Assembly: GCA_904830895.1 (NCBI GenBank)
Contig: LR882961.1
Span: forward strand, 1-48,498
Direction: 5' to 3'
DNA length: 48,498 nt
Origin: Planktothrix rubescens CCAP 1459/22
Lineage (GTDB): Bacteria > Cyanobacteriota > Cyanobacteriia > Cyanobacteriales > Microcoleaceae
Made by a program: the position numbers and the translations under genes. A model generated the notes under the pieces. It made no database searches. It saw only the letters and a list, made by a program, of their open reading frames with translations, and had not been told where the DNA came from. Below are positions 1 through 48,498 of this stretch, piece after piece (the stretch's first letter is position 1; the number at the start of each line of letters is the position of its first letter).

Positions 1-654
1 ATGGGAATAATTGCCTTAATCAATCAGAAGGGGGGGTCGGGAAAATCTACCTCCTCAGTGCATTTAGCTTATTGGCTTCAGGTCAAGAAAAACTATCGGG
101 TATTACTCGTAGATGCCGATGCTCAACGGTCAAGTTCTCAGTGGATTGCCGGGATGGAAAACCAGATTCCTTGTCAAGTGATTCAATCACCAGATGACAT
201 CCTAGAAAAGATTCCAGAGTTAATCAAAGATTACGATTACCTAGTTATTGACGGCCCGGCGAGTCTTTCCGAAGAAACCAGAGCTATTTTATTCCGATGT
301 GATTTAGCCGTAATTCCGGTGCAACCAACGGGTGTTGATTTACGGTCTGCCAGCGATGCCATGCGATTACTCAAACAGGCTCAGTCTGTGCGGGGGGGAT
401 TGCCCAAAGGTTTAGTTTTCCTAAGTCGGGCGGTGAAGAATACCAAACTCAAACAGGAGGCGATCGCCCTTTTATCTCAAATCCCCGATGCTAAATTTTT
501 AAAACCCATCATTCACCAAAAACAAGCCATCGCCGATACTTCCGGTCAATCACTAACTGTTTGGGACTTACCAGGACAAGCCGCCAGTGAAGCTGCTATC
601 GAATATGACCGATTATTTAAAGCCATCTTGAAACAATTGCCAGAGGGAGTATGA
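1..654 (+). CDS. parA: ParA-family partition ATPase
   Basis: Partition ATPase of the ParA/MinD superfamily, expected to bind ATP and non-specific DNA and to move plasmid copies apart. The deviant Walker A motif KGGSGKST sits at residues 10-17 with the signature lysine K10. Walker A' (VDADAQ) follows near residue 38 and Walker B (YLVIDGP) near residue 80. At 217 aa it is the short ParA form without an N-terminal HTH, so autoregulation probably depends on the RHH protein encoded next, whose start overlaps the stop in ATGA. The gene starts at base 1, so its ribosome binding site cannot be seen unless the molecule is circular. Family call is firm; the partition role rests on context. Confidence 0.93.
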   Translation: MGIIALINQKGGSGKSTSSVHLAYWLQVKKNYRVLLVDADAQRSSSQWIAGMENQIPCQVIQSPDDILEKIPELIKDYDYLVIDGPASLSEETRAILFRCDLAVIPVQPTGVDLRSASDAMRLLKQAQSVRGGLPKGLVFLSRAVKNTKLKQEAIALLSQIPDAKFLKPIIHQKQAIADTSGQSLTVWDLPGQAASEAAIEYDRLFKAILKQLPEGV

Positions 655-27167: not shown

Positions 27168-27179
27168 GGTTAAAAACGT

Positions 27180-27491: not shown

Positions 27492-27562
27492 GCTAGGATG
27501 ATGAATTTAATGGGTTAGAGAATGATAAAATTAAAAGATGTATTAATTTTATAAGATGATTC

Positions 27563-28012: not shown

Positions 28013-28112
28013 AACTCAACCGTAGCAATTGATTTAATAAAAAATAATATTATTATAAACTTATAATAAAGGCGAATGAGAATAGACTGAGATCAGTTTT
28101 TCATTCCTGAGA

Positions 28113-28214
28113 TCAGCGAACGGGGACGTTCGCACTACAAATAAATCTTTTATCGGTTAAAATGCGATCGCATTCTTAAAAGGAGAACAGCAGTGCGAGC
28201 GTCCTCGCTCGCTA
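28113..28214. repeat. REP pair D downstream of the RAYT gene
   Basis: Inverted REP at 28113-28136 (CAGCGAACG-GGGA-CGTTCGCACT) and direct REP at 28192-28214 lie tail to tail, the opposite order from pairs A and C. The 55-bp interior has no tandem repeat but contains a HIP1 octamer GCGATCGC at 28164. Confidence 0.8.
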
Positions 28215-28300
28215 ACCCATCAAATTTCCTCATCTAATTTAAAGCGATTTAAGTTAGAAAACTTGTGTTAAAATGAGATCTAACCTTATCTGGATAAACG

Positions 28301-28522
28301 ATGAGCCAAACACTTAATATCAGTGGGTTAAAACCTGAACAAATTGAACAAATTCAAGCCATCATTGAAGCCTTTAAAGCTAAAAATCAACTCGATAATT
28401 TAGCTAAATCCCAACCCAATCTCAATAATACTAACCCAGACCAGATCGATATTTTAACAGAAAATCCGCTCAAAGTTAATGGCTTTTTGAGACGTGAAGA
28501 AATTTATGAACGTCAATCATGA
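28301..28522 (+). CDS. Putative antitoxin of a PIN module
   Basis: 73-aa protein. The N-terminal helix (LNISGLKPEQIEQIQAIIEA) could dimerise or bind DNA, and the polar C-terminus ends in KVNGFLRREEIYERQS, a segment typical for toxin wrapping. It is 6 bp upstream of a PIN-domain gene. In related cyanobacterial loci such pairs are VapBC-like. DNA-binding fold not certain. Confidence 0.6.
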   Translation: MSQTLNISGLKPEQIEQIQAIIEAFKAKNQLDNLAKSQPNLNNTNPDQIDILTENPLKVNGFLRREEIYERQS

Positions 28523-28528
28523 GGTAAA

Positions 28529-28952
28529 ATGCAACTTAACTTTATTGATACTAATATTTGGCTTTATCGGTTGTTTGATGACCAACGGATAGAAGCTCAA
28601 GAAAGAGAAAGAAAGCAAAATATTGCTATTTCTATTACAAACCAATCTAACCTTATGATTAGTACCCAGGTCATTAATGAGATTTCGGTCAATTTAATTA
28701 AAAAAGCTAAGTTTGATGAAAATCAATTAAAGCGGTTATTCAATCTCTTTATAATCGCTGCCAAGTTTTAGAATTTAGCTTAACTATTCTGGAATCTGCG
28801 TCTGATTTACGTCTGAATTATAACCTTTCATTTTGGGATAGTTTAATTGTTGCTAGTGCTTTATCCGGGGGTGGAAACACTTTGTATTCAGAAGATATGC
28901 AAAATGGTTTAATCATTTCTCAACAACTCACGATTATTAATCCATTCGCTTG
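28529..28952 (+). pseudogene. PIN-domain ribonuclease toxin, frameshifted
   Basis: The first frame gives MQLNFIDTNIWLYRLF, with the first PIN aspartate in FIDTN, and runs to a stop at 28771. The true continuation is in another frame from about 28730: IQSLYNRCQVLEFSL, then LNYNLSFWDSLIVASALSGG and LYSEDMQNG, which carry the remaining acidic residues (WDSLI, SEDMQ). It ends at 28952. One single-base indel near 28725-28745 separates the halves. The toxin is probably inactive, which would leave the antitoxin without a partner. Confidence 0.75.
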
Positions 28953-29024
28953 AAGTTGTAGTAATCCATTTAGAATTATTAAATTAAAAATCATCAGTTA
29001 ATATTACTGTTGCGGGACATATCA

Positions 29025-32000: not shown

Positions 32001-32324
32001 GAAGAAGAAGGGGTACTGTTAGCGGATTTTGAACAAGTCTTAGAAACTCCTCCCTTGCGTCCTTCTTTAGATGAAATGGTGGCAATGGATGTAGAAGCCG
32101 ATTTATTAGAAATTCGTCAGCCCTTACCTTCAACACCCTTGACTGCTGAAAGTTTAGAAGAACTGTTGACGCGATCGCAAATTCTTAAAACTTTGGGATT
32201 TTATTTTGAAAAACGAGAACCGAAAATTTGGAAACTAAGGTTTAAAAATCAAACCTATTCGGTAACATTTTACCCGGAAATCTTTGATGAACAGCCCTCC
32301 CCTTCAATTTATGAGTTTTGGTAA
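29025..32324 (+). pseudogene. PLD-nuclease/SNF2 helicase of the Hma-like system, broken
   Basis: The first part (29025-29843) is intact: a PLD-like domain with HEKVGIFTDKQGDIIAFSGS (HxK plus GSxN). It is then hit by a REP insertion and ends in translated REP (AVGASRSLNK). Helicase motifs reappear in changing frames: motif I ADEVGLGKTIETG near 30205, DEAH near 30540, LLSATPMQ near 30655, IIFTQYTDTMDYLRQ near 31520, and motifs V-VI ASEGLNLQT and QRIGRLDRIGQ near 31715-31825. The last frame (31611-32324) reaches the natural C-terminus. At least seven indels are needed. Neighbouring long genes are intact, so real decay is more likely than poor sequence. Confidence 0.85.
29813..30027. repeat. REP pair E with 24-bp minisatellite inside the helicase gene
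   Basis: REP 29813-29835 (AGTGGGAGCG-TCT-CGCTCCCT, a compensated variant that keeps the stem) and inverted REP 30006-30027 (TAGCGAACG-TCC-CGTTCGCAC) enclose three copies of TCTATCAATGAATTAAATCC plus TGAT around 29880-29955. The pair introduces stops in the helicase frame, unlike the in-frame pair in the methyltransferase. Confidence 0.8.
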
Positions 32325-34875: not shown

Positions 34876-35763
34876 ATGAAACCAATCCCAGCACAGGCAA
34901 TTACTGTAAACTCATCTCTTGAAGTTAAAACAACTTCACACTCAAAAGAATCATTTCTACCTACCTTTAATGAAAAAGGTTATTATCTGCTTCCCGGTAT
35001 TCTAAGTCCAGAGAGAGTATTAGAAATTCGGAAATTTTTAGAAGAAAAGTTTAATGAAAAGTTTCAGGACGAAGACCTGATACGCGATGACACTATTCCC
35101 GATCACTTATGTCTATATCCCGAGCTAATTGATACATTTATTAACGATCAATTGCTTGAAGTCATAAAATCCATAGTTGGTGATGATTTTGTTTTATTAT
35201 CAGTGTCATGCATCAGAAATAGTTTTAAAGTCCTTCATACCGACTTGACCACAGCGGAAGGCGTGGGGGCCCAGTTTTTTTTGAGACCGGATTTCAACGC
35301 GATTACAATTGGAATTTACCTCCAGGATTGCAACGATGAAGGAGGAGGTTTATTTGTGGTACCGGGAAGCCATAAAAAAAGAGATCCCCTTGTAAAGCAA
35401 CGACAGCTTGCCAAAGGCATTGGTGTGCCGGTATTTGCAAAAATTATGCGTAAAATGACTGGCGGGAGATTCCCTAAATATGAAGACTATTCCATCTTTG
35501 AAAAAGAAGGAATTAACCTTCCGAGCAAGGCGGGAGATGCTGTTGTTTTTGATATGCGTATTTTACATCGAGGCTCTAAAGCGGTCGCGAAGAGAGAAAC
35601 AACAAAATTTGCACTGTTTTACCACATTTCTGCATCTGGGCAGAGCTGTGATGAGCATATAGAATTCCTTTTCTCCGAGCATGGTCATCCATATCTAAGA
35701 GAGCCAAGAAATCCTGAAATCATCAAAAAAGCAGCTCAAAATGCGGGATTTACAGCTATTTAG
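34876..35763 (+). CDS. PhyH-family Fe(II)/2-oxoglutarate dioxygenase
   Basis: 295 aa of the phytanoyl-CoA dioxygenase family. The iron ligands are H121 and D123 (LHTDLT) and the distal H231 (ILHRGS), with the substrate loop GLFVVPGSHKKRD near 158-170. All three ligands are present, so hydroxylase or related oxidative activity is expected. Less G+C-rich than the downstream genes of the cluster. Substrate unknown; neighbours suggest an amino-acid or amino-alcohol-type small molecule. Confidence 0.82.
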   Translation: MKPIPAQAITVNSSLEVKTTSHSKESFLPTFNEKGYYLLPGILSPERVLEIRKFLEEKFNEKFQDEDLIRDDTIPDHLCLYPELIDTFINDQLLEVIKSIVGDDFVLLSVSCIRNSFKVLHTDLTTAEGVGAQFFLRPDFNAITIGIYLQDCNDEGGGLFVVPGSHKKRDPLVKQRQLAKGIGVPVFAKIMRKMTGGRFPKYEDYSIFEKEGINLPSKAGDAVVFDMRILHRGSKAVAKRETTKFALFYHISASGQSCDEHIEFLFSEHGHPYLREPRNPEIIKKAAQNAGFTAI

Positions 35764-36020
35764 ATTATCCCCGTATGGGCGTGGATCAGAGCATTCTCAA
35801 TGAGAACCTTGCATCAGCGAAAGACGTGACTTGATGTTAGGGTTGGCAGAGATAAGTTCTAGGAAACAGAATTCAGAAGTTTGCCAACACTTTCTTATAA
35901 ATTATTTTTAAAGAACTATGATAAAAAACTGTCTTTCAATGTTTCATCTGAAAAGTAGCAACTGATCCAATTGTTGGTGTATGATATAAGATTAACAAAA
36001 GTGTAAGGGAATACTTTCGT

Positions 36021-36776
36021 ATGACAAGCAAAATAGCGATCGTCACTGGTGCTGGTAGCGGCATAGGTCGCGCCTGTGCCCTTGCCCTGTTAGAAAATGG
36101 TTGGTCTGTAGCGCTCGCTGGAAGGCGCAAGCACGCCCTAGAGGAGACTGCAAAACTCGCCCTAGAGGCGACTGAGCGAGCCTTCCCTGTCTCGACAGAT
36201 ATCGGCAACCCCGATTCAGTTGCGGCGCTGTTCGCGGCGGTAAAGCAGCGGTTCGGTCGGCTCGACTTCCTATTCAACAATGCTGGCGACAATGCCCCAA
36301 GCGTGCCCCTTGAGGAATTAGCCTATGAAGACTGGGCACGGGTAGTGCAGACTAATCTAACTGGCACCTTCCTCTGCGCTCAGCAAGCATTCCGGGTGAT
36401 GAAATCACAGTCACCGATGGGTGGACGCATCGTCAATAATGGCGCACTCTCAGCACATATGCCGCGACCGGATTCGATTGCTTTTACTACGACTAAGACT
36501 GCGATCACTGGACTCACTCGTTCGCTCTCGCTCGACGGTAGAAAATACGACATCGCCTGTGGACAGCTCGACATCAGTAACACTACGATTCCTACAGATC
36601 AGCCAACTCCCCCGCACGCAGCGAAGCAAGCGGATGGAACGTTTCAAGTGGAGCCGTCTATGGATATCAAGCATGTTGCAGAGACGGTTGTAATGATGGC
36701 GAATATGCCACTCGATACAAATTTTCAGTTTGTCACGTTGATTCCAACTAAAGTTCCCTACATCGGTCGAGGATAG
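36021..36776 (+). CDS. Short-chain dehydrogenase with altered active site
   Basis: 251-aa SDR. The cofactor loop TGAGSGIG is at 10-17, NNAG at 86-89 and N112 is in TNLTG. The active site differs from the rule: the expected serine 13 residues before the tyrosine is A142 (NNGALSAH), and the catalytic tyrosine is F155 (AFTTTK); only K159 remains. Most SDRs of this subgroup would read NGS...YTATK. The enzyme may have lost redox activity or use another mechanism. The frame is intact and it is in the biosynthetic cluster, preceded by a promoter-like TATGATATAAG near 35980. Confidence 0.85.
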
Positions 36777-37302
36777 TAATTGAATGGGTGCAAAGGTGAA
36801 ACCTCTGTGTGTGGCTAAACTGCAAAATCTTTGGTTCAAAACATAATTCGTGATCGCCATATCAACGATTTCCCGATTTCTTTATTTCTTCTGATATCCT
36901 CCTACTTCACAAAGCTGTTCATAAATTTCATTAGAATAGTTTGCCAGCTTAAAGCTATAATCAAACATCGCCTTTTGAAATTAATGATTGAGTCAAATAT
37001 CCCTCTTTTGTCACTCTCCGAGTATAATGAATAGAAGAATTAAAAAATTAAACTCTATAAAGTAGGTGTGGCAATGGATGTAGAATTACAAATCCTGAAG
37101 CATTTGGCAAGAGAGGCTCGGCCAACAGTTGCCATCATAGATGAATATTGTGCCGAATATAAAGACTAAGGAATGGAAAAGTAATAACTTGATGAATTAT
37201 TAGATATAATGGAGTATAGCCACTGATGGCAGATTTTACAAAAATTGAGAGAACCGGGCAACGGATTTTTCGATTAAATGACACAGCTTGACCTGAAAAC
37301 CC
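36777..37302 (+). other. Insertion-sequence debris region
   Basis: 526 bp between the SDR and the fused dioxygenase. Apart from the transposase stub at 37074 there is no gene. The sequence is A+T-rich, unlike the genes on both sides, as expected from IS remnants. The junction with the dioxygenase is described under that gene. Confidence 0.5.
37074..37169 (+). pseudogene. N-terminal stub of a transposase (IS701-like)
   Basis: 31 codons (MDVELQILKHLAREARPTVA then IIDEYCAEYKD) resemble the first residues of IS701-type transposases, in which EYC-x-x-Y-x-x-L-F follows. A stop comes directly after KD. Assignment to IS701 is from memory of the pattern and is tentative. Confidence 0.4.
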
Positions 37303-37545
37303 ATGTTTTATTCTAGTTCAATTCAGGAAGAAATGAAGAAGTTTTATAACTCTTTATCAGAAAAGGATAAAAGAAGATATGCAGCGATAGAGGCTCAAAA
37401 ATTGGGATGGGGAGGAATTAGTTATATCATCAAACTGTTGGGTTGTACTCGAAACACAATCGTCCGAGGAATAAAAGAGTTAGAAGAACTGGATGAACCG
37501 ACGATTAATGATGATGGATATGTCAAGCGAAAAGCACAAAAAAAG
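37303..37545 (+). mobile_element. ISAzo13-like transposase N-terminus fused to next domain
   Basis: About 80 codons (QEEMKKFYNSLSEKDKRRYA, AAIEAQKLGWGGISYI, CTRNTIVRGIKELEEL) match the N-terminal HTH region of ISAzo13-family transposases. The usual continuation with a glycine-rich GGGRK segment is missing; the frame passes into the PhyH domain instead. A+T-rich, in contrast to the sequence after about 37600. Confidence 0.75.
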
Positions 37546-38496
37546 CAAACAACAGGAATTAATAAAGATCGAAATGCTCAATTTGAAAATATTGCTAGAC
37601 TCGATAGCCTGTATGACGTATCATCGTTGCTGACTTCCCTGGTAGCCGAACCACTAAACGCCACACAGCTCAGCGCATTTGCCGATCGCGGATATCTCGT
37701 GCTGTCATCGTTTCTGCCAAGCGAGCTGGTAGCAACACTAAAGCCAGAGGTTGACCGTTGGGTGGATGGGGGGTTGCGCGATGAGGCGACGGCATACTGC
37801 CTCAAGGGGCTGCGCCAACCACCGCCAGTGATGGAACTGGAACTGGGCGAACATGGCTGGCTGATCGGATATCCTCCACTGATGGCGATACTCGCCCAAC
37901 TGATGGGGCCAATTTTTGCCTTTCATCACCTGCACAGCAGCCGCCACGATTCTGGTTCTGCTGACAAAAACTGGCACCACGACTACGAGCAGTATCCGCA
38001 GACTAACCGCTCACATATGATGGTTCACGTCTTCCACTACCTGGACGGCCTCAACGGTACGATAGGTGACCTAGTGGTACTGCCCGGTTCGCAACAAATT
38101 GTTGCCGAAAAGAATGCCCTTAGTCGCTTCGGCGCTATGCCGCTGCCTGGTGAAGTCGCGATCGAAAACTTGCCGCCCGGATCGACAGTCATTATCCACT
38201 CGGGGGTGTTCCACGCCCGGCGCGCCAAGGCAGGTGGTGAGGGACAGCCACGCTACCTTATAGATTGTGCATACTGTCAAGGCGGGGTGCGCTGGCCTGT
38301 GGTCAAGCCCTACTGGCAGCAGATGCTTGCTCGTGCTCGTGCCCTAGGCTTAGACCGCGGTCAGTGGCACGATCTGTTCGCTGAACGACATTTCTATGAC
38401 CCCTACGATCAAATGGTGCCATTTAAGCAAATAAACCAAGGCAGTTTATTGGAACGGCTGATGCCCGCTCTGATGGAGCAGGCGCGGCGGGGGTAA
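37303..38496 (+). CDS. Transposase HTH-PhyH dioxygenase fusion
   Basis: 397 aa. Residues 1-80 are the ISAzo13 N-terminus (HTH); residues about 100-397 are a PhyH-family dioxygenase with H225 and D227 (WHHDYE), distal H304 (GVFHARR) and GDLVVLPGSQQ near 255-265. There is no ATG between the two parts in this frame until M177, well inside the enzyme, so the dioxygenase must either be translated from the transposase start or from a non-ATG codon. Base composition shifts sharply at the joint near 37600. The dioxygenase itself looks complete. It differs from the first PhyH protein and probably acts on another carbon. Confidence 0.8.
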   Translation: MFYSSSIQEEMKKFYNSLSEKDKRRYAAIEAQKLGWGGISYIIKLLGCTRNTIVRGIKELEELDEPTINDDGYVKRKAQKKQTTGINKDRNAQFENIARLDSLYDVSSLLTSLVAEPLNATQLSAFADRGYLVLSSFLPSELVATLKPEVDRWVDGGLRDEATAYCLKGLRQPPPVMELELGEHGWLIGYPPLMAILAQLMGPIFAFHHLHSSRHDSGSADKNWHHDYEQYPQTNRSHMMVHVFHYLDGLNGTIGDLVVLPGSQQIVAEKNALSRFGAMPLPGEVAIENLPPGSTVIIHSGVFHARRAKAGGEGQPRYLIDCAYCQGGVRWPVVKPYWQQMLARARALGLDRGQWHDLFAERHFYDPYDQMVPFKQINQGSLLERLMPALMEQARRG

Positions 38497-38551
38497 AAGC
38501 TTTGTGCAAACACCTTACTATTTCGGCGCAAGAGTCTTTTGGAGCCTGAGT

Positions 38552-39091
38552 ATGAAAATTGTGATGAAAGTAGAGTTTGACGAGGTACTGGCGCAGTTTC
38601 GCTCAGAGCATCATGCAGACAGAGAGCACGAAGCCAACACAAATCGGCAAGCAGAGGAGATATTAGTGTGTGCTGATGTACAGTTGCGTCAGTGGAGCAA
38701 GGTTTTTTTAGGGCGGCAAGATATTTTGCGGGTTACTTTGCCCTGGCATATTAGTGAAGGCGGGAACATCAAGCTCATTCCCAAATCCGGGCTGACTGTA
38801 GAGCAAGCTGTAGAAAAGCTTTCCAGTATGAAAGATCGGTATGCAAAAGAGAGTCCTGTCTGCTGGAACAAGATATGGAGAACCGATCGCACCCAATTCC
38901 TGCCGATTTTTTTATCCACTAAAGCAATTACCGCCCCATACTATGCAGGCTATACAGAACTCGATATAACCGAAGGACTGGTGCATCTCGACGGCTTGCA
39001 CCGGATGATCGCTTGGGAATTGAATGGATTACTAACGGATAACGCGCAGGTAGAAGCATACGTGGCAGGTAACTTATCGTTCTATGTATAA
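38552..39091 (+). CDS. Conserved small protein, DUF6309-like
   Basis: 179 aa from ATG 38552; an upstream start at 38504 is possible. MKIVMKVEFDEVLAQFRSEH and LPWHISEGGNIKLIPKSGLT are followed by a C-terminal HLDGLHRMIAWELNG segment that recalls the GxHR phosphate-binding motif of ParB/sulfiredoxin-like folds. I associate the pattern with DUF6309 proteins in biosynthetic clusters, but this is tentative. It overlaps the phosphatase gene by 8 bp (ATGTATAA), so the two are translationally coupled. Confidence 0.5.
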   Translation: MKIVMKVEFDEVLAQFRSEHHADREHEANTNRQAEEILVCADVQLRQWSKVFLGRQDILRVTLPWHISEGGNIKLIPKSGLTVEQAVEKLSSMKDRYAKESPVCWNKIWRTDRTQFLPIFLSTKAITAPYYAGYTELDITEGLVHLDGLHRMIAWELNGLLTDNAQVEAYVAGNLSFYV

Positions 39092-39797
39092 CCTCAAATC
39101 CTTATGCCCAACTGAACGTAACATCGGTGATGGAACTTGGGACATTTTCTGTGACTTTGATGGCACGATCTCCCTTGCTGATATCACCGATACACTGCTT
39201 GAGAGCTTCGCTACCTCGGCTTGGCAAGAAATCGAGCAGGCGTGGCAAGCGGGAGCGATTGGCTCGCGCGAGTGTCTAGCCCGCCAGATCCCTTTGCTCG
39301 ATATGTCACGCAGCGATCTCGACCTGCACCTCGACGCGCTCGCGATCGACGCTGATTTCCCCGCCTTTGTTGCAGAAGCACAGGGGCGAGGACATAAAAT
39401 CACCGTAGTCAGCGATGGGCTAGACTATGCCATCCGGCGTATCCTGGCACGTTACGAGCTAAGCTCCATCTCTATAGTCGCTAATAGCTTACAGCAGCAG
39501 GGTGAACGAGCTTGGCAACTCACTTTTCCGAATTTCAACGCTAACTGCCTGGTCGCATCTGGAAATTGCAAGTGCGCCACCGTGGATCAGATCCAGAGCT
39601 ACACCACGAGCAATCGGCGATCGCTACTGATCGGTGACGGCACTTCGGACTTCTGCGCCGCACAGAAGGTCGATTTTGTCTTTGCCAAGCACAAGCTGAT
39701 TGACCACTGCACCCAGCGCAACCTGCCGCACTTCACGATCCAAGGCTTTGCCGATGCACGGCACTTGCTTGAGAAACTCGACCGCATGGTATACTGA
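39084..39797 (+). CDS. HAD-superfamily phosphatase (MtnX/SerB-like)
   Basis: 237 aa. Motif I is FCDFDGTIS with nucleophile D24 and acid D26, motif II is VVSDG near 112 and motif IV is GDGTSDFCAA near 185-194. It is of the HAD-IB type that includes phosphoserine and MtnX phosphatases. It likely removes phosphate from an intermediate of the cluster before or after transamination, as SerB does in a serine-like route. It overlaps the preceding gene, and the aminotransferase follows after 47 bp. Confidence 0.82.
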   Translation: MYNLKSLCPTERNIGDGTWDIFCDFDGTISLADITDTLLESFATSAWQEIEQAWQAGAIGSRECLARQIPLLDMSRSDLDLHLDALAIDADFPAFVAEAQGRGHKITVVSDGLDYAIRRILARYELSSISIVANSLQQQGERAWQLTFPNFNANCLVASGNCKCATVDQIQSYTTSNRRSLLIGDGTSDFCAAQKVDFVFAKHKLIDHCTQRNLPHFTIQGFADARHLLEKLDRMVY

Positions 39798-39844
39798 AAC
39801 ACACTACTTTAGGCTGACATTTATACAACGGAGACACCATAGCT

Positions 39845-41230
39845 ATGGCTGATGCCCTGACAGAACAAGATCTGCTTGCGCTAGAGGCGCAATACTGCTC
39901 CCATGGCGACACCGTTCATTATCAAAACCCCCCCAAAATATTCAGTCGCTGTGAAGGCAGCTATATGTATGACGAGTCAGGCCAAGCCTTCCTAGATTTG
40001 CAAATGTGGTACTCGGCAGTCAGTTTCGGCTACGCCAATCCACGTCTCAACGATGCAATGAAACGTCAGCTTGATACGTTACCCCAAGTCACAAGCCAGT
40101 ATCTACATAAGGAGAAAATAGAACTCGCAGCAGCTCTGGCACAGAATGTCGAGCGAACCTTTGGCATGAAGGGGCGCGTACATTTCAATGTTGGTGGCTC
40201 TCAGGCGGTCGAGGACTCGCTAAAACTCGTGCGGAATGCGTCCAACGGCAAGAGTCTGATGTTCGCCTTCGAGGGTGGCTATCACGGTCGGACGCTCGGT
40301 GCCTCAGCGATCACGTCGAGCTACCGCTACCGGAGGCGTTACGGTCATTTCGGCGATCGAGCGCAGTTTGTTCCCTTTCCCTACTGTTTCCGTTGCCCCT
40401 ACGGTAAAAAGCAGGAGGACTGCGGGTTGTACTGTGTCGATCAATTTGAGCGGCTGTTCGACTCTGAATATTATGGTGTCTGGGATACCAAAGCGGGAGA
40501 AGCAGAATATGCTGCCTTCTATGTGGAAGCGATTCAGGGAACGGGTGGCTATGTCATCCCACCTGCGGGGTATTTTGAGAAACTCAAGCAAGTGCTCGAT
40601 GCCCGCAAAATACTGTTAATTGATGACGAGATTCAGATGGGCTTTTACCGAGCAGGTAGGTTCTGGTCAATTGAGAATTTTAACGTAAAACCGGACGTGA
40701 TTGTTTTTGGTAAGGCAATCACTAACGGTCTCAATCCCCTAGCCGGAATCTGGGCCCGCGAGGAACTGATCAACCCAGAAGTATTCCCGCCCGGTTCAAC
40801 ACATTCGACTTTTTCGTCCAACCCGCTCGGCACCGCTGTAGCCCTAGAGACGGTTCGGATGCTTGAAGCAAAGGACTACCACTCCATGACTATGGAAAAG
40901 GGCGCTTACTTCCTGGCGGGATTGAAAGATTTGAAGCAGAGGCACGCGATCGTGGGTGATGTAGATGGTTTAGGTCTCGCTCTGCGGATCGAAATCTGTG
41001 CGGCAGAGGACAGCTTTACACCCGATAAAGCAATGGTCGATAAAATGTGCGACATGGCCATGAGCGGGACACTGGAGGCACGAGGCCGCTTCTACGGACT
41101 CATACTCGATATCGGTGGCTACCACAAGAACGTGATTACGCTCGCACCATCTCTGGAGATCAGCTACGACGAAATCGATCTGGCGCTTGAACTCCTTGAG
41201 TGCCTCTTCACCCGCTGCACCAAAGTCTGA
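39845..41230 (+). CDS. Class III PLP aminotransferase
   Basis: 461 aa of the ornithine/GABA aminotransferase group. PLP lysine K290 is in VIVFGKAITNG, the cofactor aspartate in LLIDDEIQMGF (260-261), and the phosphate region in NVGGSQAVEDS near 115-125. A cysteine cluster CFRCPYGKKQEDCGLYC at 181-197 may bind a metal, as in archaeal-type GABA transaminases. GGAG lies about ten bases upstream of the ATG. Expected to swap an amino group on a ketone or aldehyde made by the dioxygenases and SDR of this cluster. Confidence 0.88.
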   Translation: MADALTEQDLLALEAQYCSHGDTVHYQNPPKIFSRCEGSYMYDESGQAFLDLQMWYSAVSFGYANPRLNDAMKRQLDTLPQVTSQYLHKEKIELAAALAQNVERTFGMKGRVHFNVGGSQAVEDSLKLVRNASNGKSLMFAFEGGYHGRTLGASAITSSYRYRRRYGHFGDRAQFVPFPYCFRCPYGKKQEDCGLYCVDQFERLFDSEYYGVWDTKAGEAEYAAFYVEAIQGTGGYVIPPAGYFEKLKQVLDARKILLIDDEIQMGFYRAGRFWSIENFNVKPDVIVFGKAITNGLNPLAGIWAREELINPEVFPPGSTHSTFSSNPLGTAVALETVRMLEAKDYHSMTMEKGAYFLAGLKDLKQRHAIVGDVDGLGLALRIEICAAEDSFTPDKAMVDKMCDMAMSGTLEARGRFYGLILDIGGYHKNVITLAPSLEISYDEIDLALELLECLFTRCTKV

Positions 41231-41329: not shown

Positions 41330-42358
41330 GAACTCTTGCAAAATAATTTTATGGTATTATGGTAAGTTTTGCTCAATTTCATAAAATCCTAGAGACTAAC
41401 CATTCTTCACAAACTTTTGCTAAAAACTCCATAAAATGGTAAAAATTGAAAGTGAATTTAGACAATAACTCTGCGATGAACACTCAATTTTATCTAAATT
41501 TGAAACCTCATGAATTTAAACGAAGATTTGGTGTCAAGATTCAAACCTTCCAAAAAATGGTTAATGCCATAGAGCAGTTCAGGTTAGAACATCCTAAAGA
41601 TAGAAGAGGACGTCACACCCTGCTGACTCTCCAAGAGCAAGTTTTAGTAGCCTTGGAGTATTGGCGAGAATACAGAACATATTTTCATATTGGGACAAAT
41701 TGGGGAGTATCAGAATCAACTATTTGCCGAATTGTTGCTAATATTGAATCAACTTTAATGAAAACAGGAAAGTTTCGGATTCCGGGAAAGAAAGCATTAA
41801 TTCAAGATTCTGGCTACCCCGAAATCGTAGTGATGGATGTCACGGAAACGGCTATTGAAAGACCGAAAAAAAAACAGAAAAAATGTTACTCAGGAAAGAA
41901 AAAACATCACACGCTCAAAATTCAGTTAGTAATTGATCAAGAAACTAAACAGATTATTTGTACAGATTTTGGACAAGGACATTGCCACGATTTCAGCTTA
42001 TTCAAAAAAAGCAAAATTCATTTTCACCCCCAAACTGATAGTTTACAAGATAGTGGCTATCAAGGGATTAAGGATTATCACTTGAATAGCTATGTACCCA
42101 AAAAGAAACCCAAAAATGGCAATCTTTCGGTCTTAGAAAAAGACTATAATCTAGCTTTGGCTCATCAACGAATTGTGATTGAACACGTTAATCGGAGCCT
42201 CAAAATTTTCAGGATCTTATCGAGTCGTTATCGAAATCGTCGTCGCCGTTATGGTCTTCGTTGTAATTTGTTGTCAGCCATTTATAATTATGAGTTGACA
42301 CTCTTAGTCTGAAAGTGAAAATTTTTTATTATAGCATAGATTTTTTTTGCAAGAGGTC
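41330..42358 (+). mobile_element. IS5-family insertion sequence, complete
   Basis: Terminal inverted repeats GAACTCTTGCAAAA (41330-41343) and the complement of TTTTGCAAGAGGTC (42345-42358) differ at one position. TA stands on both sides (41328-41329 and 42359-42360), consistent with a TA target duplication as in the IS427 branch. Length 1029 bp with a single transposase gene. The element looks intact. Confidence 0.85.
41476..42312 (+). CDS. IS5-family transposase (DDE_Tnp_4 type)
   Basis: 278 aa from ATG 41476 (MNTQFYLNLKPHEFKRRFGV); weaker TTG/GTG starts are at 41446 and 41452. The N-terminal HTH region runs to WGVSESTICRIVANIEST. DDE residues: the first aspartate in EIVVMDVTET, the second in SLQDSGYQGI and the glutamate in HQRIVIEHVNRSLKIFRILS. 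All parts are present, so the element should be autonomous. Confidence 0.9.
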   Translation: MNTQFYLNLKPHEFKRRFGVKIQTFQKMVNAIEQFRLEHPKDRRGRHTLLTLQEQVLVALEYWREYRTYFHIGTNWGVSESTICRIVANIESTLMKTGKFRIPGKKALIQDSGYPEIVVMDVTETAIERPKKKQKKCYSGKKKHHTLKIQLVIDQETKQIICTDFGQGHCHDFSLFKKSKIHFHPQTDSLQDSGYQGIKDYHLNSYVPKKKPKNGNLSVLEKDYNLALAHQRIVIEHVNRSLKIFRILSSRYRNRRRRYGLRCNLLSAIYNYELTLLV

Positions 42359-42407
42359 TAATTATAACTGCTCGCATCATGTTTTTAGAAAAGGGTAAAT
42401 AGATGAA

Positions 42408-42833
42408 TCAGGACTTACGCAAGCACACTATATATAGGGCTTGCTGAAAAAGTAACAGAAAAGGAACAGAATGATTTACCACCCAACGAAGTTGATGAAC
42501 AATTTGAATTAATAATTCCACTAAACTATCCGTAATTTCTTGTTTTCTTTGCCAACAGAAGGCTGCCATGAGAGTGTAACGAATCGACTGAGGATGGCGA
42601 CGTAATTCCCTAGGCGGTTCCGTTGAAGCTCGTTGTCGATAGTGCTGGACAATTTTCGGGGAAGTCTGAGTAAATAAATGCTCTGGTAATTCTAATTGCC
42701 GAATTGTTTCTAACTTGTCAATTTCTTTGAGTAAGCTATCTGTAGCGAACTGCAAACATAAACGTTTCAAACCGCAAACAAGGAAATTTTCAAACCACAT
42801 TAACTGCAAATAAGAGGGGTCTCGAACCCACAA
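42408..42833 (-). pseudogene. Tn3-family transposase fragment
   Basis: About 82 codons (42489-42734) match the N-terminal DUF4158 domain region of Tn3 transposases: ELPEHLFTQTSPKIVQHYRQ, then RELRRHPQSIRYTLMAAFCW and QEITDSLVELLIQIVHQL. The frame then passes into unrelated sequence with IS-end-like AGGGCTTGCTGAAAAAG and CAGGACTTACGCAAG motifs (42411-42455), and at the other end into a tandem repeat. Both ends of the transposase are missing. The Tn3 ancestry may explain the nearby 304-bp miniature elements. Confidence 0.8.
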
Positions 42834-42912
42834 TCACTGCAAATGAAACCACATTATTTGCAAACAAACCACAATCACTGCAAATGAAACCACATTAATT
42901 GCAAATAAGCTG
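42745..42912 (-). repeat. Degenerate tandem repeat TTTGCA(G)...GTGG
   Basis: Read on the minus strand, a unit of about 21 bp (ATTTGCAGTGATTGTGGTTT) recurs some five to seven times with variation between 42912 and 42745, interrupted by GGTTCGAGACCCCTC. It precedes the Tn3 transposase fragment. It may be a minisatellite, or an array of recombinase sites. Confidence 0.6.
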
Positions 42913-42954
42913 TAACCATTGCAGAGGTTGGATTACAGCATTTGTCGCCTCCAG

Positions 42955-43147
42955 AGTGTCCAATTTATACGAACCAATTAGTCAAACACTTATGCCCGAA
43001 CAATGTGGTTTAATCTGAACGATATCCGTCCAATAAAATTATGAATTAGGTTTTTGGGAGCAAGTATCGCCAACCTGTTTCCCTTGCTTAGTAAAGATTA
43101 TGAAGTGTCGTTTTGGGTTTTGGTAATCATCTAAAAATTTGGACACT
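42955..43147. repeat. Possible degenerate miniature element
   Basis: AGTGTCCAATTT (42955-42966) and AAATTTGGACACT (43135-43147) form an imperfect inverted repeat enclosing 168 bp without a gene. It directly precedes the first 304-bp element. Its GTGTCC ends resemble the GGGACACTTT part of that element's termini. Low certainty. Confidence 0.3.
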
Positions 43148-43185
43148 TTCATTCCCTAAGCGTTTATTAATCCCAAAACCATACA

Positions 43186-43489
43186 GGGTAGCCACCGAGA
43201 TACGTGCAAAATGGGACACTTTGTAAAATTTTGTAACGTTGATGTTTAAAATCCACGATTTTACGTTGTTTCAACACTGAATTCCGGGTGTCCTCTTTTG
43301 TAAAACATCCCCAAAAAAGGTCATAAATGGGCAAGTTTGAAAGACTGAATAGTGTTAACAGTGGATTTGAGTATCCAAAAACTAGAATGTTTCAGTACCA
43401 TTTTTGGGCAAGTTTTTAAATCATTAAAAGACATTTTGCAATATTTGTTTACAAAGTGTCCCATTTTGCACGTATCTCGGCGGCTACCC
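43186..43489 (+). mobile_element. 304-bp miniature inverted-repeat element, copy 1
   Basis: Begins GGGTAGCCACCGAGATACGT and ends in the complement, with terminal inverted repeats of 42 bp differing at one position (A/G at base 9). The termini contain GCAAAATGGGACACTTTGTA. The interior has no gene. By eye, copy 2 at 48116-48419 is identical in reverse orientation and of equal length. Its right end supplies the last 13 codons of the truncated SDR gene. The size and long G-starting TIRs fit Tn3-derived miniature elements (TIMEs). Confidence 0.92.
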
Positions 43490-43946
43490 TAGCAAGAGCG
43501 GCTTTAGTTGTTGAGTATGAGGGAATATTTGACGGAATAATTTCATGGATTGATGATATATTGACAATAATACCAGGAATTTGATGTTCAATCCAGAAAC
43601 GAACGGTTGCCTGTGATAAAAACATTGGTGCAGCAAGATTAGTCAACCACGTTTTTTCAAGAATTTCAGGAGTTGTTTCTAAAAATGAGGACTTAAACTG
43701 ACAACCGGCGTTATTAATTAAAATATTAGGTCGAAATGATGTCAGTAAATCAGGAAAATCCTTATCCCAGAAATTTTTTTCTGAAATATCTGCTGTTACT
43801 AAAATAATATTCTCCTGTTGCGGTTGGGCTAACCAGTTTTTATCAATAGCTAAAACCTGATATCCCTTGCCAAGAAAATTTTCAACTATCGCTGAACCAA
43901 TTCCTCGTGCTGCTCCAGTAACAATTGCTTTTGTTTTGGTATCCAT
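43449..43946 (-). pseudogene. SDR dehydrogenase truncated by miniature element
   Basis: 165 codons. The cofactor motif TGAARGIG is at 10-17, NNAG near 78, and YSTTKAALAR near 143-152 carries the catalytic tyrosine and lysine. After R152 the frame enters the 304-bp element (VAAEIRAKWDTL) and stops. SDRs of this class are about 240-260 aa, so roughly the last 90 residues, including part of the substrate-binding region, are lost. Probably inactive. It was likely part of a larger glycan or metabolite operon. Confidence 0.85.
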
Positions 43947-43970
43947 CTGATATGTTCTCCTCTAGTTAAA

Positions 43971-45050
43971 CTAGACTTTCAAAATTTGTTGATATAGTTT
44001 AATTAATTGTTCAGTAATTTTTTTATTATCATAATAATTTTCTATGAATTTACGACCTGCTTTACCCATTTCTATCCGTGATCTTGGATTTTCAATTAGA
44101 TAGTTTAATTTCGCCGCTAAAGCATCCACATCTTTTTCAGCAACTAGAAAGCCCGATGTTCCATCTAACACTCCATCAGGAATACCATTATGAATCGTGG
44201 ATAAGACAGGTAGCCCTGTAGCTTGAGCTTCTTGCAAAACTAGCCCCTGACCCTCTTGGTCTCCATTAGCAGCAGTTACACTTGCCAAAATGAAGATATG
44301 AGCATTATAATAAAAATCTATAATTTCATCTTGGTTCATCCATCCTAGTAGTTTAACTTGATTAGAAAGACCTAGTTCTTGAATTAATTTTTGAATTGAT
44401 TCACGTAGATAACCATCACCAATAATGTTATATTCAAGTTTAGGGTAGTTAGAGATTGTTTTAGCCACAGCTTTTAGAGAATATTCAATTCCTTTCTTTT
44501 CTACTAATCTAGCAACTGTAAGAACTTTTATAGGTTCGTCTGAGCGGGTTTTTCTTGGGTAAAAACTGTACTTTAAAGTATCAATACCAATGGGTAGCTT
44601 AATTATTTTGTCCTTTGGACAACCTAGTGCTAAAGCCTTGTCAACTATAAAAGAAGATATGCCTATAAAGCAATCACCTATTTGAAAGAGGTGCTGATAA
44701 ATGTCATTACCAAATTTTAGAGGATATAAAGTTACATCAAACCCGTAAAAACTTGTAATTAACTTTCCCTGAAGTCTACCAAGTTCTAACAGTCTTAGTC
44801 CATCTAAGCCATAAGGTCCAAAATGACAATGAATAATATCATAGGTTTGTTTTTCTGGTTTAAATGGAGCATAATAAGTTCTCTCAAGTAGACCATATCT
44901 ATATATATCAGGGTGTATCTTAGGCTCATTCCTAGAATGCCTTGCATATATATCGACCTGATAGCCATGCTGAATTAAGCCTATGATTTGATTGACAATA
45001 AAGGTTTCCGATAAAGCAGGAAAATCTCCTACTACAAAAGCAATTTTCAT
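43971..45050 (-). CDS. GT4-family glycosyltransferase
   Basis: 359 aa, GT-B fold. The N-terminus MKIAFVVGDFPALSETFIVN is typical of WcaL/AmsK-like exopolysaccharide transferases. The nucleotide-sugar site lies in the C-terminal half: VARLVEKKGIEYSLKA near 190 and EGQGLVLQEAQATGLPVLST near 275. Intact. It should transfer a sugar to a lipid-linked or exported glycan. The truncated SDR gene follows 24 bp downstream on the same strand. Confidence 0.88.
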   Translation of the reverse strand: MKIAFVVGDFPALSETFIVNQIIGLIQHGYQVDIYARHSRNEPKIHPDIYRYGLLERTYYAPFKPEKQTYDIIHCHFGPYGLDGLRLLELGRLQGKLITSFYGFDVTLYPLKFGNDIYQHLFQIGDCFIGISSFIVDKALALGCPKDKIIKLPIGIDTLKYSFYPRKTRSDEPIKVLTVARLVEKKGIEYSLKAVAKTISNYPKLEYNIIGDGYLRESIQKLIQELGLSNQVKLLGWMNQDEIIDFYYNAHIFILASVTAANGDQEGQGLVLQEAQATGLPVLSTIHNGIPDGVLDGTSGFLVAEKDVDALAAKLNYLIENPRSRIEMGKAGRKFIENYYDNKKITEQLIKLYQQILKV

Positions 45051-45090
45051 GGTAGAGAATTAGACATTGACAAAATTAGTTTACTGGATT

Positions 45091-45119
45091 GGGGTAGCAG
45101 CGTAAAGCGGGACACTTTG
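45091..45119 (+). repeat. Solo terminus related to the miniature elements
   Basis: GGGGTAGCAGCGTAAAGCGG followed by GACACTTTG shares the GGGTAGC start and GGGACACTTTG end with the 304-bp element termini but differs in the middle. No second end is visible. It lies between the divergent glycosyltransferase and epimerase genes. It may be a relic of a related transposon. The reading frame 45117-45320 that follows has no recognised function. Confidence 0.45.
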
Positions 45120-45320
45120 ATCTGGTTCTTGGATAGTGAAAATGGCTGTAAGGCTTACTCTGTAGGACGAAAGCTAAAACCCTTTCAGGATAAGCTGTCC
45201 CGCATTAAGTTGATACCCCTGGATTGTTTCCCCTATCCCATCAGAAAAAACGCGCTCGAAGTCTTAGCCATTTATAATATAATAAGAAAAGAACTGTTTA
45301 CAAGAACGTTAAGGAAACAA

Positions 45321-46253
45321 ATGAAAGCATTAGTCACAGGAGGCGCAGGGTTTATAGGTTCTCATTTAGTTAAACACTTAGTAGCCGAAAATATTAAGAC
45401 TAAAGTCTATGATAACTTATATTCGGGGCACTTAGAAAATCTAACGTCTGTCCAAAATAAAATTGAATTTATTTACGGAGATATTTGCGATAAAAAACAC
45501 TTATTAAGCGCAATGCAGGACGTAGATTGTGTATTTCACCAAGCAGCTTTAGTTTCCGTTCCTCAATCAACTTTGAATCTCCAACTAACTCAACAAATTA
45601 ATATTTTGGGAACATTAAATGTCTTAGAAACTGCCCTCAAAGCTGACGTTCGGCGCATTGTTATTGCTTCAAGTTGTGCTATCTATGGAGATTGCTATCA
45701 ACCACCTTTAAAAGAGGACTTAGCTTCTATGCCAAAATCTCCTTATGCAGTTAGTAAAGTAGCCACAGAAGCTTGGGGTGAAACTTTTTATCATACTTAT
45801 GGTCTAGAAACCATATCCTTAAGATATTTTAATGTTTACGGAGTTGGACAAAGGGCTGACTCAGAATATGCAGCTGTTATTCCAAAATTTATTAATTGCT
45901 ACCGCAACAAACAAAGACCTAAAATTTATGGCGACGGACAGCAAAGTCGTGATTTTATATCAGTTAGTGATGTGGTACAAGCCAACATTGCTGCTGCTAC
46001 CATCTCTAGTAAAATTTTAAATAAGCATCGTATTTTTAATGTATGTACGGGGATAGCTACCAATTTATTAGAACTACTACAATTAATTTCCGAAAAATTT
46101 GGATATTGTCTCGAACCAGAATTTTTAGATATAAGGAGGGGGGATATTCAAGCATCTTGGGGAGATATTACTAGAGCGTCAGTTAACCTAAACTTTTCTG
46201 TCAAGGAAACACTATCTGAAAAAGTTTCCTCAGTAATTGATCGTATTAATTAG
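45321..46253 (+). CDS. NAD-dependent sugar epimerase/dehydratase (GalE-like)
   Basis: 310 aa from ATG 45321 (MKALVTGGAGFIGSHLVKHL), preceded by AAGGAA; the longer frame from 45117 adds unrelated residues from transposon debris. Extended SDR: GGAGFIGSH binds NAD, SSCAIYGD carries the catalytic serine region, YAVSK holds the tyrosine and lysine, and RYFNVYG is the conserved sugar-site loop. Likely UDP-sugar 4-epimerase or a related nucleotide-sugar enzyme supplying the glycosyltransferases nearby. Confidence 0.88.
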   Translation: MKALVTGGAGFIGSHLVKHLVAENIKTKVYDNLYSGHLENLTSVQNKIEFIYGDICDKKHLLSAMQDVDCVFHQAALVSVPQSTLNLQLTQQINILGTLNVLETALKADVRRIVIASSCAIYGDCYQPPLKEDLASMPKSPYAVSKVATEAWGETFYHTYGLETISLRYFNVYGVGQRADSEYAAVIPKFINCYRNKQRPKIYGDGQQSRDFISVSDVVQANIAAATISSKILNKHRIFNVCTGIATNLLELLQLISEKFGYCLEPEFLDIRRGDIQASWGDITRASVNLNFSVKETLSEKVSSVIDRIN

Positions 46254-46299
46254 ATGGCTAATTTGATTATTTGAGTCATGCTAACAGCAAATATTAAAA

Positions 46300-47019
46300 T
46301 TAAGTATTTTTTGGAAAAAACTTTCTATACAAGTGAGCTAGATCAAGGTAAGTTCCGCCACCCCATCCCAACAAGTAACGTAAGCGTTCTTGAGAATAAA
46401 GCTGTTCATTAACGCAGAGCCTAGGTAAAATATAGCGATTACTCTTTATTTTAAGAGAGATAGCTGTAACAGAAAAAGCAGCATCATAACCAGCTATTTT
46501 TACAAGGTTTGAAATTTCTAAATTAGTCTTACCAAATGGATAAACAAAGTACCGTATAGGAACTTGTAACTCATTTTGTAACCGCTCACGACTTTCAAGT
46601 ATTTCCCTATTTACATCTTCTAAAGACATTTTGGTTAAATCTCTATGAGTTAAAGCATGAGAAGCAATTTCTAGATTTGAATAATCTGCCAGCAGATTGG
46701 ATATTGTAGTCAAATCTAATACTTTGCCTGTAAGTCCTTGATGTAGTGGTGATTCAGGTAAAGCCAATACAGACCAAAGAACAGGAATATTTTGCTCTAA
46801 TAACCAAATAATTGCTTTCAAACTACTTTCTAATCCATCATCAAAAGTAATAGCAAGAGATGGATGCAAATCATTTACTTGTATAATATTTGCTACTGAA
46901 GTGATTTGATAGTTTAAAGTCTTTATCCAATTTATTTGACGTTCAAAGAGCGACCAAGATACATTACAGTATAATTGATCTTCACCGATACCATGATAAC
47001 AAAGAATAATTCTGTCCAT
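46300..47019 (-). CDS. Polysaccharide deacetylase (NodB/CE4-like)
   Basis: 239 aa from ATG 47019; the longer frame to 47082 overlaps the preceding gene and is less likely. CE4 motifs: YHGIG at the start, TFDDG (motif 1) near 75, SHALTH (motif 2, zinc histidines) near 122 and FVYPFGKTN (motif 3) near 158. No signal peptide, so it may act on cytoplasmic lipid-linked sugars. Follows the glycosyltransferase by 32 bp on the same strand. Confidence 0.82.
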   Translation of the reverse strand: MDRIILCYHGIGEDQLYCNVSWSLFERQINWIKTLNYQITSVANIIQVNDLHPSLAITFDDGLESSLKAIIWLLEQNIPVLWSVLALPESPLHQGLTGKVLDLTTISNLLADYSNLEIASHALTHRDLTKMSLEDVNREILESRERLQNELQVPIRYFVYPFGKTNLEISNLVKIAGYDAAFSVTAISLKIKSNRYILPRLCVNEQLYSQERLRYLLGWGGGTYLDLAHLYRKFFPKNT

Positions 47020-47051
47020 AATATTTATTAATAAACTTTCAAAATTAGTTT

Positions 47052-48149
47052 TCAATAATTTGATAAAAAGTTCTTCATACAATTTTCTAATGTTTCAAGA
47101 GAGTAATATTTTTCAACATACTTACGGCCTGATTGACTAAGATTTAAAACCAGTTCTGGTTCATTGTTCAATCTAATAAGCTGTTCAGCAAATTCTGAAA
47201 CATTATTAGCTAACAATAAATGCTCATTAGCTTGTATATCTACTAATCCTTCAATGGAAAGAGAAGTAGCAATTACAGGAACTCCCATAGCCAAGCATTG
47301 TAAAATTTTATTTTTTACACCTGCACCTGAACGTAAAGGACATAAAAAGACATTCCATGAATACACTACATCAGATAAATTTGGGACATAACCTATTATT
47401 CTCAAGCCTAAACTCTGTAATTTTAACAATCGTTTTGATGGAAACAAACCAACTATTTCACATTCTAATAAGGGAAACTTCTGTTTTAGATATGGGTAAA
47501 TATCAGTTCCTAACCAGTAAGCGGCATCTTCATTGGTCGAAGCCGAAAAAATGCCGAAAAAACCAATTTTGATTGAATTAGACCAAGAAGAAGGTGCTTG
47601 ATACTGAAATTTATCTAAATCTACTACATTAGGAATAACTTTTATTGTCCCTGAATCTAATTTAGCTGATTTTTCAATGTAAGAGCTATCTAGTTCTGAA
47701 CAAACAACCATTCGATAGGATTGAGCGATTTGTTTTTCATAGTTACTGAGTATTTTACTTTCATAATTGTTAATTATTGCCCTAAAGCCATAAAAATTTA
47801 GCTGACATAATCGTTCATAATAGAGTCCCATAGAATCTGTCCCATCAATAACTTTATCATTTTCAAAGTGTTTAGCATATTGAGCCATTCTTAATCTTTT
47901 GATGTAAATTAAATCAAAATTTTCTGATGCTAATTGAGAAACTACTCGATGAAACTCTGGAAAATCACAATAAGCAGAACGTAATGAAGACTGTTTAAAT
48001 AAGGCTAGGAAACAGGAAATATAAGACCATGTTTTGGGAGCATTAATTCCTATCGCTTTTTGACATAAATCAGAAATTTTGGCTAAATCCTCTGCTTCAT
48101 ATTTATTGGTTACTAGGGTAGCCGCCGAGATACGTGCAAAATGGGACAC
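47052..48149 (-). pseudogene. GT4 glycosyltransferase, N-terminus replaced by miniature element
   Basis: 365 codons; the first 11 (MSHFARISAAT) are encoded inside the 304-bp element. The real protein begins within LVTNKYEAEDL and has lost its first N-terminal strand and glycine-rich loop, so the acceptor domain is incomplete. The C-terminal donor domain is intact: IKIGFFGIFSASTNEDAAYW, PLRSGAGVKNKILQCLAMGV and PVIATSLSIEGL. It may be expressed from the element but is probably impaired. Original length likely about 400 aa. Confidence 0.8.
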
Positions 48150-48419
48150 TTTGTAAACAAATATTGCAAAATGTCTTTTAATGATTTAAAAACTTGCCCA
48201 AAAATGGTACTGAAACATTCTAGTTTTTGGATACTCAAATCCACTGTTAACACTATTCAGTCTTTCAAACTTGCCCATTTATGACCTTTTTTGGGGATGT
48301 TTTACAAAAGAGGACACCCGGAATTCAGTGTTGAAACAACGTAAAATCGTGGATTTTAAACATCAACGTTACAAAATTTTACAAAGTGTCCCATTTTGCA
48401 CGTATCTCGGTGGCTACCC
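48116..48419 (-). mobile_element. 304-bp miniature inverted-repeat element, copy 2
   Basis: Reverse-orientation copy of 43186-43489. I compared the two by eye and saw no difference. It starts GGGTAGCCGCCGAGATACGT on the plus strand and ends GTATCTCGGTGGCTACCC. It disrupts the 5' end of the glycosyltransferase gene. Confidence 0.92.
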
Positions 48420-48466
48420 AGAATCTTACTGAATCCTGCAAACTGTAATAAAATACTTAATTAATG

Positions 48467-48498
48467 CAGTAAGTAAGTAAATCAGTAAGTAAATCAGT
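48467..48498. repeat. Short direct repeats at the window end
   Basis: CAGTAAGTAAGTAAAT, CAGTAAGTAAAT and CAGT follow one another up to the last base. If the molecule is circular these lie immediately before the parA start codon, the usual place for an operator or centromere of a ParA-RHH system. Confidence 0.5.

Follow-up and report, generated by a model that had tools for sequence, protein, structure and literature searches.

Miniature elements with Tn3-type ends (TIMEs) have been described in Pseudomonas as 262-bp units with 38-bp Tn3-type terminal repeats that make 5–6-bp target duplications, and direct or inverted pairs of them form composites (TIME-COMPs) that mobilise the DNA between them (PMC4133298). 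In Enterobacteriaceae, the mini-Tn3 elements TIME244 and IS101 are mostly plasmid-borne, carry a resolution site, putative in TIME244 and functional in IS101, and likewise bound composites; an inverted TIME244 pair around tet(A) occurs with its cargo in both orientations, on 52 and 62 replicons, which is credited to the resolvase (PMC13367494). Three major resolvase types are known, TnpR, TnpI and TnpS+TnpT, and in Tn4430 and Tn5401 a Tn3-family TnpA is accompanied by the tyrosine recombinase TnpI and a site (irs) with nearby direct repeats (PMC7157771). Here we describe an inverted pair of 304-bp elements of this kind in the cyanobacterium Planktothrix rubescens CCAP 1459/22, where they bound a 4.6-kb segment of glycan genes. 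The window analysed, 48,498 bp long, is an entire contig (C4), one of five in a 5.70-Mb genome, and is probably a plasmid. A sequence-only reading of this DNA had taken the pair for a composite transposon. We find that the two elements are arranged as in a TIME composite around a captured fragment of a glycan locus, with no sign that the whole unit arrived by transposition.

Throughout, G000 is the present genome (5 contigs), other G labels and L labels denote further genomes and extracted loci, and C denotes a contig. Comparisons drew on 10 genomes of the genus, 59 of the family (the 10 included) and 291 of the class, and a plasmid collection of 72,556 records was searched with the 304-bp element. 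The elements and their ends lie as follows.

43186..43489, plus strand: left 304-bp Tn3-type miniature element (TIME), identical to the right copy, with three full-length relatives at 97% in G002
48116..48419, minus strand: right 304-bp Tn3-type miniature element, inverted, identical to the left copy
43186..43227, plus strand: outer terminal inverted repeat (42 bp) of the left element, 94% over 48–49 bp to both ends of the 4.04-kb Tn3 transposon of L031
43448..43489, minus strand: inner terminal inverted repeat (42 bp) of the left element
48116..48157, plus strand: inner terminal inverted repeat (42 bp) of the right element
48378..48419, minus strand: outer terminal inverted repeat (42 bp) of the right element

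As the sequence-only reading had claimed, the two copies are exact reverse complements, identical at 304 of 304 bases with no mismatch, and each ends in 42-bp terminal repeats, which differ from end to end at one base (98%). They are the only full-length occurrences found within the five contigs; a 41-bp match to the element end lies on C3. No open reading frame (ORF) of 60 aa or more lies wholly inside the element, and an Rfam scan of 42300–48498 returned no family at gathering score. At less than about 500 bp, with Tn3-type ends and no transposase gene, the element has the sequence properties of a TIME, and, as in a TIME-COMP, two such elements bound DNA without transposition genes. The likeness to the Pseudomonas elements thus extends to short Tn3-ended units paired around other DNA; the differences are the length of 304 bp, the 42-bp ends, the cyanobacterial host, the lack of a duplication around the window pair and an interior that we trace to a putative tyrosine-recombinase site.

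The same ends are found on a full transposon within the genus. Matches to the element occur in five of the 10 genus genomes, the present one included; G002 holds three full-length relatives (97%) as well as two matching ends about 4 kb apart at C143 11857–15895 (L031 4858–8896), which delimit a complete 4.04-kb Tn3-family transposon. This encodes a TnpA of 1026 aa (PF01526, E 6.4e-148; NF033527, E 4.7e-217) and, divergently from tnpA, a tyrosine-type recombinase of 213 aa (PF00589, E 1.7e-44). In NCBIfam, the recombinase is matched best by the models of two DNA invertases of the tyrosine type (E 2.7e-51 and 4.2e-51, under their curated cut-offs), which we take to be FimB and FimE. A plasmid of Calothrix NIES-4101 has ends of the same kind and a TnpA 93% identical to that of L031. 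Since these ends occur on a Tn3 transposon that encodes TnpA, the 304-bp element is, on sequence grounds, a non-autonomous Tn3-family miniature element. The Tn3-type termini of the sequence-only reading thereby have a full transposon to match them, and they do not fall to another family: the ends of L031 match and flank a Tn3 TnpA. By description, L031 can be set beside Tn4430 and Tn5401 in combining TnpA, a tyrosine recombinase and a putative direct-repeat site; it differs in its divergent gene order and its short, 213-aa recombinase.

Relatives of the element are widespread. It is matched by 32 of the plasmid records, in 13 cases along 80% or more of its length, and matches occur in at least 23 of the 291 class genomes, the present one included (two candidates were scored per genome, which makes this count a lower bound); the phage collection gave no match. 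The copies occur singly at many unrelated places. One, in G235, covers element positions 10–296 (66%) at 4.78 Mb of its contig, probably on the chromosome, and the family is therefore not confined to plasmids. Half copies lie on NIES-204 plasmids at G001:C2:80501–80650, 26 bp past a match to the parA region of the window, and at G001:C3:38524–38706.

The interior of each element carries a candidate recombination site.

43327..43414, plus strand: putative recombination site of the left element; its repeats recur, 77 bp apart, next to the tyrosine-recombinase genes of L031 and L076 and, with 1–2 mismatches, next to that of L182
48191..48278, minus strand: putative recombination site of the right element, identical in sequence and inverted relative to the left

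In the left element the direct repeats ATGGGCAAGTT (43327–43337) and TTGGGCAAGTT (43404–43414) stand 77 bp apart, and across copies their common form is (A/T)TGGGCAAGTT. We aligned 19 copies, namely 14 from plasmids (rows were drawn from 15 of the 32 matching records, and 14 entered the alignment), two from the window and three from G002. Both repeats are present in 17 of these; GGCAAG cores lie 77 bp apart in 15 rows (one with an extra core between) and 76 bp apart in two, and one core is changed or cut off in the last two. The cores are likewise 77 bp apart in L031, beside the recombinase gene. At this spacing the repeats also precede the Calothrix Tn3 recombinase gene (L076) and, with 1–2 mismatches, a Geminocystis recombinase gene (L182) that is 69% identical to the Calothrix one. 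Among Nostocales copies the interior is 61–74% identical to that of the window copy. Positions 121–233 of the Nostoc TCL26-01 copy match the recombinase–tnpA stretch of the Calothrix Tn3 at 69% over 114 bp (E 8e-6), and the same positions of the Calothrix NIES-4101 copy match the same stretch at 69% (E 3.5e-4). Judged from position, repeat and spacing, the interior repeats would be the recombination site of a close recombinase lineage.

In carrying a candidate site of this kind the window elements resemble TIME244 and IS101. The sites of TIME244 and IS101 match serine-resolvase res, whereas here the site adjoins a gene best matched by tyrosine-type DNA invertase models. The TnpI-type irs comprises an IR1–IR2 inverted-repeat core plus DR1–DR2, and our repeats, 77 bp apart, are compared with it on the direct repeats. 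By analogy with TIME244, a tyrosine recombinase could flip the cargo of the window pair; no second strain with the window cassette was found for a comparison of orientations.

The family shows the target duplications of Tn3 transposition. Perfect 5-bp direct repeats (AAATA, TAAAC, GTATA and TATTA) flank four of 20 full-length copies; shuffled flanks gave a mean of 0.345 duplications, with four attained roughly once per 10,000 shuffles (P ~0.0001), and the excess is the signature of Tn3. The other 16 copies lack a 5-bp duplication, as does the full L031 transposon. This count leaves out one truncated, badly aligned row (L074), includes L070 and L073 (one degenerate end each) and L065 (an insertion) as copies without duplication, and rests for L063 and L064 on flanks read by eye, which show none; the 20 rows are partly dependent, the two window rows being identical, as are the three from G002. 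A TAAAA flank common to two G002 copies was too weak to use. On C27 of G262, an order-level relative, two inverted 305-bp elements of the same family, 2 mismatches apart, have TTACA directly at both outer ends. This is a 5-bp duplication around the whole unit, so composites of this element family can transpose. The two largest ORFs between the G262 elements, of 508 and 419 aa, look like a Dyp-type peroxidase and a lipoxygenase.

The window pair lacks the direct repeat around the whole unit that marks a TIME-COMP and that TTACA/TTACA provides in G262. Its flanks read ATACA / left element / TAGCA and TACTA / right element / AGAAT, with no direct repeat at the left copy, at the right copy, at the outer ends (ATACA/AGAAT) or in the reciprocal arc (TACTA/TAGCA); the single copies and outer ends were checked by script, and the other flank pairings were compared by hand. 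The flanks expected of an inversion product of intramolecular transposition, also compared by hand, do not fit the pair. What lies beyond the right element is DNA associated with plasmid partition.

48420..48498, plus strand: parA-upstream DNA, which abuts the right element at its outer end and is unbroken across this point in 8 of 10 related sequences compared
1..654, plus strand: gene for a ParA-like partition ATPase (ORF and plasmid matches), which would lie beside the pair in a circular contig

The right outer end joins this DNA at AGAAT. In eight of the 10 related sequences compared, the parA-upstream sequence continues unbroken through the junction point: NIES-204 supplies three of them, contigs C2 and C3 of the present genome two, and other P. 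agardhii plasmids three; for four of the eight, adjacency to parA presumes a circular record. The comparison is uninformative for the remaining two (G003 and G009), which have diverged too far or are too short. Further upstream, over 1.8–5.0 kb in six of the eight, nothing matches next to the window pair; that DNA matched the window only in short repeats and, for two sequences, over 525 bp at 13090–13614. The junction thus replaced DNA and did not arise by simple insertion. On the other side of the pair, positions 42834–43185 contain no ORF as long as 60 aa, and beyond this gap is the transposase fragment to which the sequence-only reading had pointed.

42408..42833, minus strand: fragment of a Tn3-family transposase of a different lineage (NF033527, E 3.3e-20), with no similarity to the L031 TnpA

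The fragment is real and lies 352 bp from the left element, as proposed, but belongs to another lineage than the transposon with matching ends. It scores far below the full-length cut-off of NF033527 and has no Pfam match, and as a source of cognate transposase it was rejected, the best tblastn hit against the L031 TnpA having E 7.5. Nor was a cognate TnpA found elsewhere in G000, where the best matches reach 26% identity along a stretch of C1 and 53% over a remnant of 60 residues on C2; four of the 10 genus genomes have TnpA matches, full-length and close only in G002. A cognate recombinase was likewise not found in G000 (best match 24% identical), and outside G002 there is one near-full-length good match (58%, G007). 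Since neither enzyme was found in the five contigs, the pair looks stranded and is probably immobile in the present strain at present.

Several neighbouring observations concern these enzymes. As L031 4940–5581 and its relatives show, TnpA in cyanobacterial Tn3-family transposons is accompanied by a short, invertase-like recombinase of the tyrosine type; plasmids of TIOX110, NIES-3756 and Gloeothece have relatives of the L031 recombinase next to genes for Tn3 transposases. At the Tn3-type locus L139 (G007:C23:194970–197479), the recombinase is 58% identical to that of L031 and the TnpA 27% over the matched part, and recombinases may have been swapped between Tn3 lineages. A 240-bp stretch at 42737–42975 of the window recurs at about 72–99% in many cyanobacterial plasmids. 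Both in L179 and in the L064 plasmid it stands some 100 bp away from genes of the recombinase family, and it is possibly a res site that belongs to another Tn3-type element.

Between the elements lie the following features.

43490..43946, minus strand: short-chain dehydrogenase/reductase (SDR) gene with its 3' end lost (PF00106, E 1.7e-23); the ORF enters the element by about 13 codons
43971..45050, minus strand: glycosyltransferase (Glycos_transf_1) of 359 aa, apparently intact (PF00534, E 5.6e-38)
45091..45219, no strand assigned: separate 129-bp miniature element, flanked by perfect direct repeats TGGATT (45085–45090 and 45220–45225), its ends Tn3-like by eye
45321..46253, plus strand: NAD-dependent sugar epimerase/dehydratase of 310 aa (PF01370, E 4.6e-55)
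46300..47082, minus strand: polysaccharide deacetylase, start uncertain (PF01522, E 6.3e-14)
47052..48115, minus strand: glycosyltransferase with its 5' end lost (PF13692, E 4.5e-17); the present ORF begins inside the element, with GTG at 48149

Both edge genes are cut as the sequence-only reading had described. At the left copy, matches of the SDR to solved SDRs (proteins of about 250 aa) stop near query residue 153, which corresponds to chain residue 159 of 282 in the best match and 159 of 244 in the third; at the right copy, the relative of the glycosyltransferase in L097 is about 37 (from the first Met) to 57 (from the preceding stop) residues longer before the element-junction point. Phase variation of an edge gene is disfavoured, both being truncated. 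The right glycosyltransferase has some match in 200 of the 291 class genomes (up to seven candidates scored per genome), the best besides itself being 29% identical by E-value, with partial matches up to 36% among the candidates scored; genome_contigs holds one 36% relative, in a metagenome-assembled genome of Oscillospiraceae. At the DNA level, with five candidates scored per genome, the 4.6-kb segment matches 13 of the 59 family genomes, the present one included, and the other 12 match in pieces only, the best of 539 bp at 74%, inside the left glycosyltransferase. The uninterrupted SDR-to-glycosyltransferase locus was not found in the 59 family genomes, the 291 class genomes (few candidates scored in each) and genome_contigs; movement of the glycan genes by the pair is for this reason something we infer. 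Two elements at unrelated sites of one uncut glycan locus, the arrangement that the sequence-only reading held to be incompatible with a composite, were not found either. The separate 129-bp element was found only in the present genome among the 10 of the genus.

The composite proposed by the sequence-only reading stands in part. The Tn3-type ends, the TIME-like inverted pair and the G262 pair with a 5-bp repeat around its unit bear it out; against it are the lack of such a repeat around the window pair, the two broken edge genes, the different lineage of the nearby fragment and the missing cognate enzymes. We think it rather probable that a TIME pair was assembled here by rearrangement and deletion and is now stranded. 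A parent Tn3 transposon would have given rise to a 304-bp element that kept both 42-bp ends and the putative recombination site without the enzyme genes, whose lack emerges from the comparison and whose loss would have been by deletion. With both enzymes supplied in trans, the element would transpose replicatively and its cointegrates would be resolved. Most likely, replicative transposition within or between plasmids would have brought the parA-upstream region up against the right element at its outer end; an adjacent deletion would have removed the DNA formerly upstream of parA, leaving no direct repeat, and similar breaks would have truncated the SDR and glycosyltransferase genes. Several points weigh against this account. 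Its deletion step is deduced from one junction, and recombination of copies between two plasmids would look identical; at the left outer junction, no related sequence reached the junction among the matches listed, and no donor locus of the glycan segment was identified in the searches above. The interior repeats occurred in none of six further recombinase genes (46–62% identical; L181 and L183–L187) at up to 2 mismatches within 230 bp upstream, the match of the window copy itself to the recombination region of the Tn3 spans only 19–20 bp (E 0.004 and 0.015), and the putative function of the site is read from its position, repeat and spacing. The genome could also have lost a small replicon that carried the enzymes.

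Assembly by rearrangement and deletion overlaps with an exchange of arms, and the odds of the two are not exclusive. Here, single insertions on different plasmids would have had their flanks swapped by homologous or site-specific recombination between copies, leaving mismatched flanks, as the 16 of 20 copies without a duplication in a family that generates them, and the site repeats in 17 of 19 aligned copies, would lead one to expect. Loss of duplications by mutation or deletion would equally explain those 16 copies, however; no partner molecule was recognised, the left-flank searches, among the matches listed, never reach the junction, and a close relative of the recombinase was not found in the present genome. 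We give this exchange a minority chance. That a true composite moved into the plasmid as one unit and later lost its direct repeat by rearrangement at the left edge is unlikely: the layout is that of TIME-COMPs (PMC4133298, PMC13367494) and the inverted pair of the same family in G262 has TTACA at both outer ends, but the outer flanks ATACA and AGAAT share no duplication, the edge genes are truncated, and searches of the genus and family genomes found no second location of the unit. Copies do sit singly at many unrelated places, as they would if two unrelated insertions had entered a pre-existing glycan locus of the plasmid with no role in its movement; yet the remainders of the edge genes do not continue beyond the elements (parA-upstream DNA follows on the right, and no ORF of 60 aa or more on the left), neither window copy has a target duplication, and the parA junction disfavours such insertions, which makes this very unlikely. 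An assembly artefact that fused unrelated pieces at a repeat is barely credible. The repeat is identical and placed at the segment ends, but 304 bp is short for a long-read assembly, as the five contigs suggest this to be, and just two full copies are present to confuse it.

A broader proposal, to which we attach a small chance, is that an old, single lineage of miniature Tn3 elements spread in Nostocales and Planktothrix plasmids as a portable site for a FimB/FimE-like recombinase, fusing and shuffling plasmids, and that inverted pairs, here with a glycan cassette, could be flipped whenever the recombinase enters the cell. TIMEs and TIME composites now extend to cyanobacteria, one composite having a target duplication (G262) and one lacking it (the window). 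Tying the interior to a putative tyrosine-recombinase site gives a testable account of an interior kept across genera and of the many mismatched flanks, and may explain how plasmids become mosaic in Planktothrix and other bloom-forming genera. We found no published account of Tn3-derived miniature elements or composites in cyanobacteria in the open-licence literature. Nezha and other cyanobacterial MITEs are miniature inverted-repeat elements, a likeness to the 304-bp element that we draw by description. MITEs such as Nezha are cited in PMC10969869, in text that does not call them Tn3-derived, and Anabaena sp. 90 has 147 complete or partial MITEs (PMC3542288), some of which may belong to the family of the 304-bp element.

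Elsewhere in the window, a group of ORFs at 34876–41230, left of the pair, is perhaps a small biosynthetic cluster; we take its products to be two phytanoyl-CoA-dioxygenase-type proteins, an SDR, a HAD phosphatase and an aminotransferase. The large ATPase, DNA methylase and helicase-like ORFs at 19863–32324 presumably resemble a defence island, and near 27270–27454 a 17-bp string is repeated every 21 bp.

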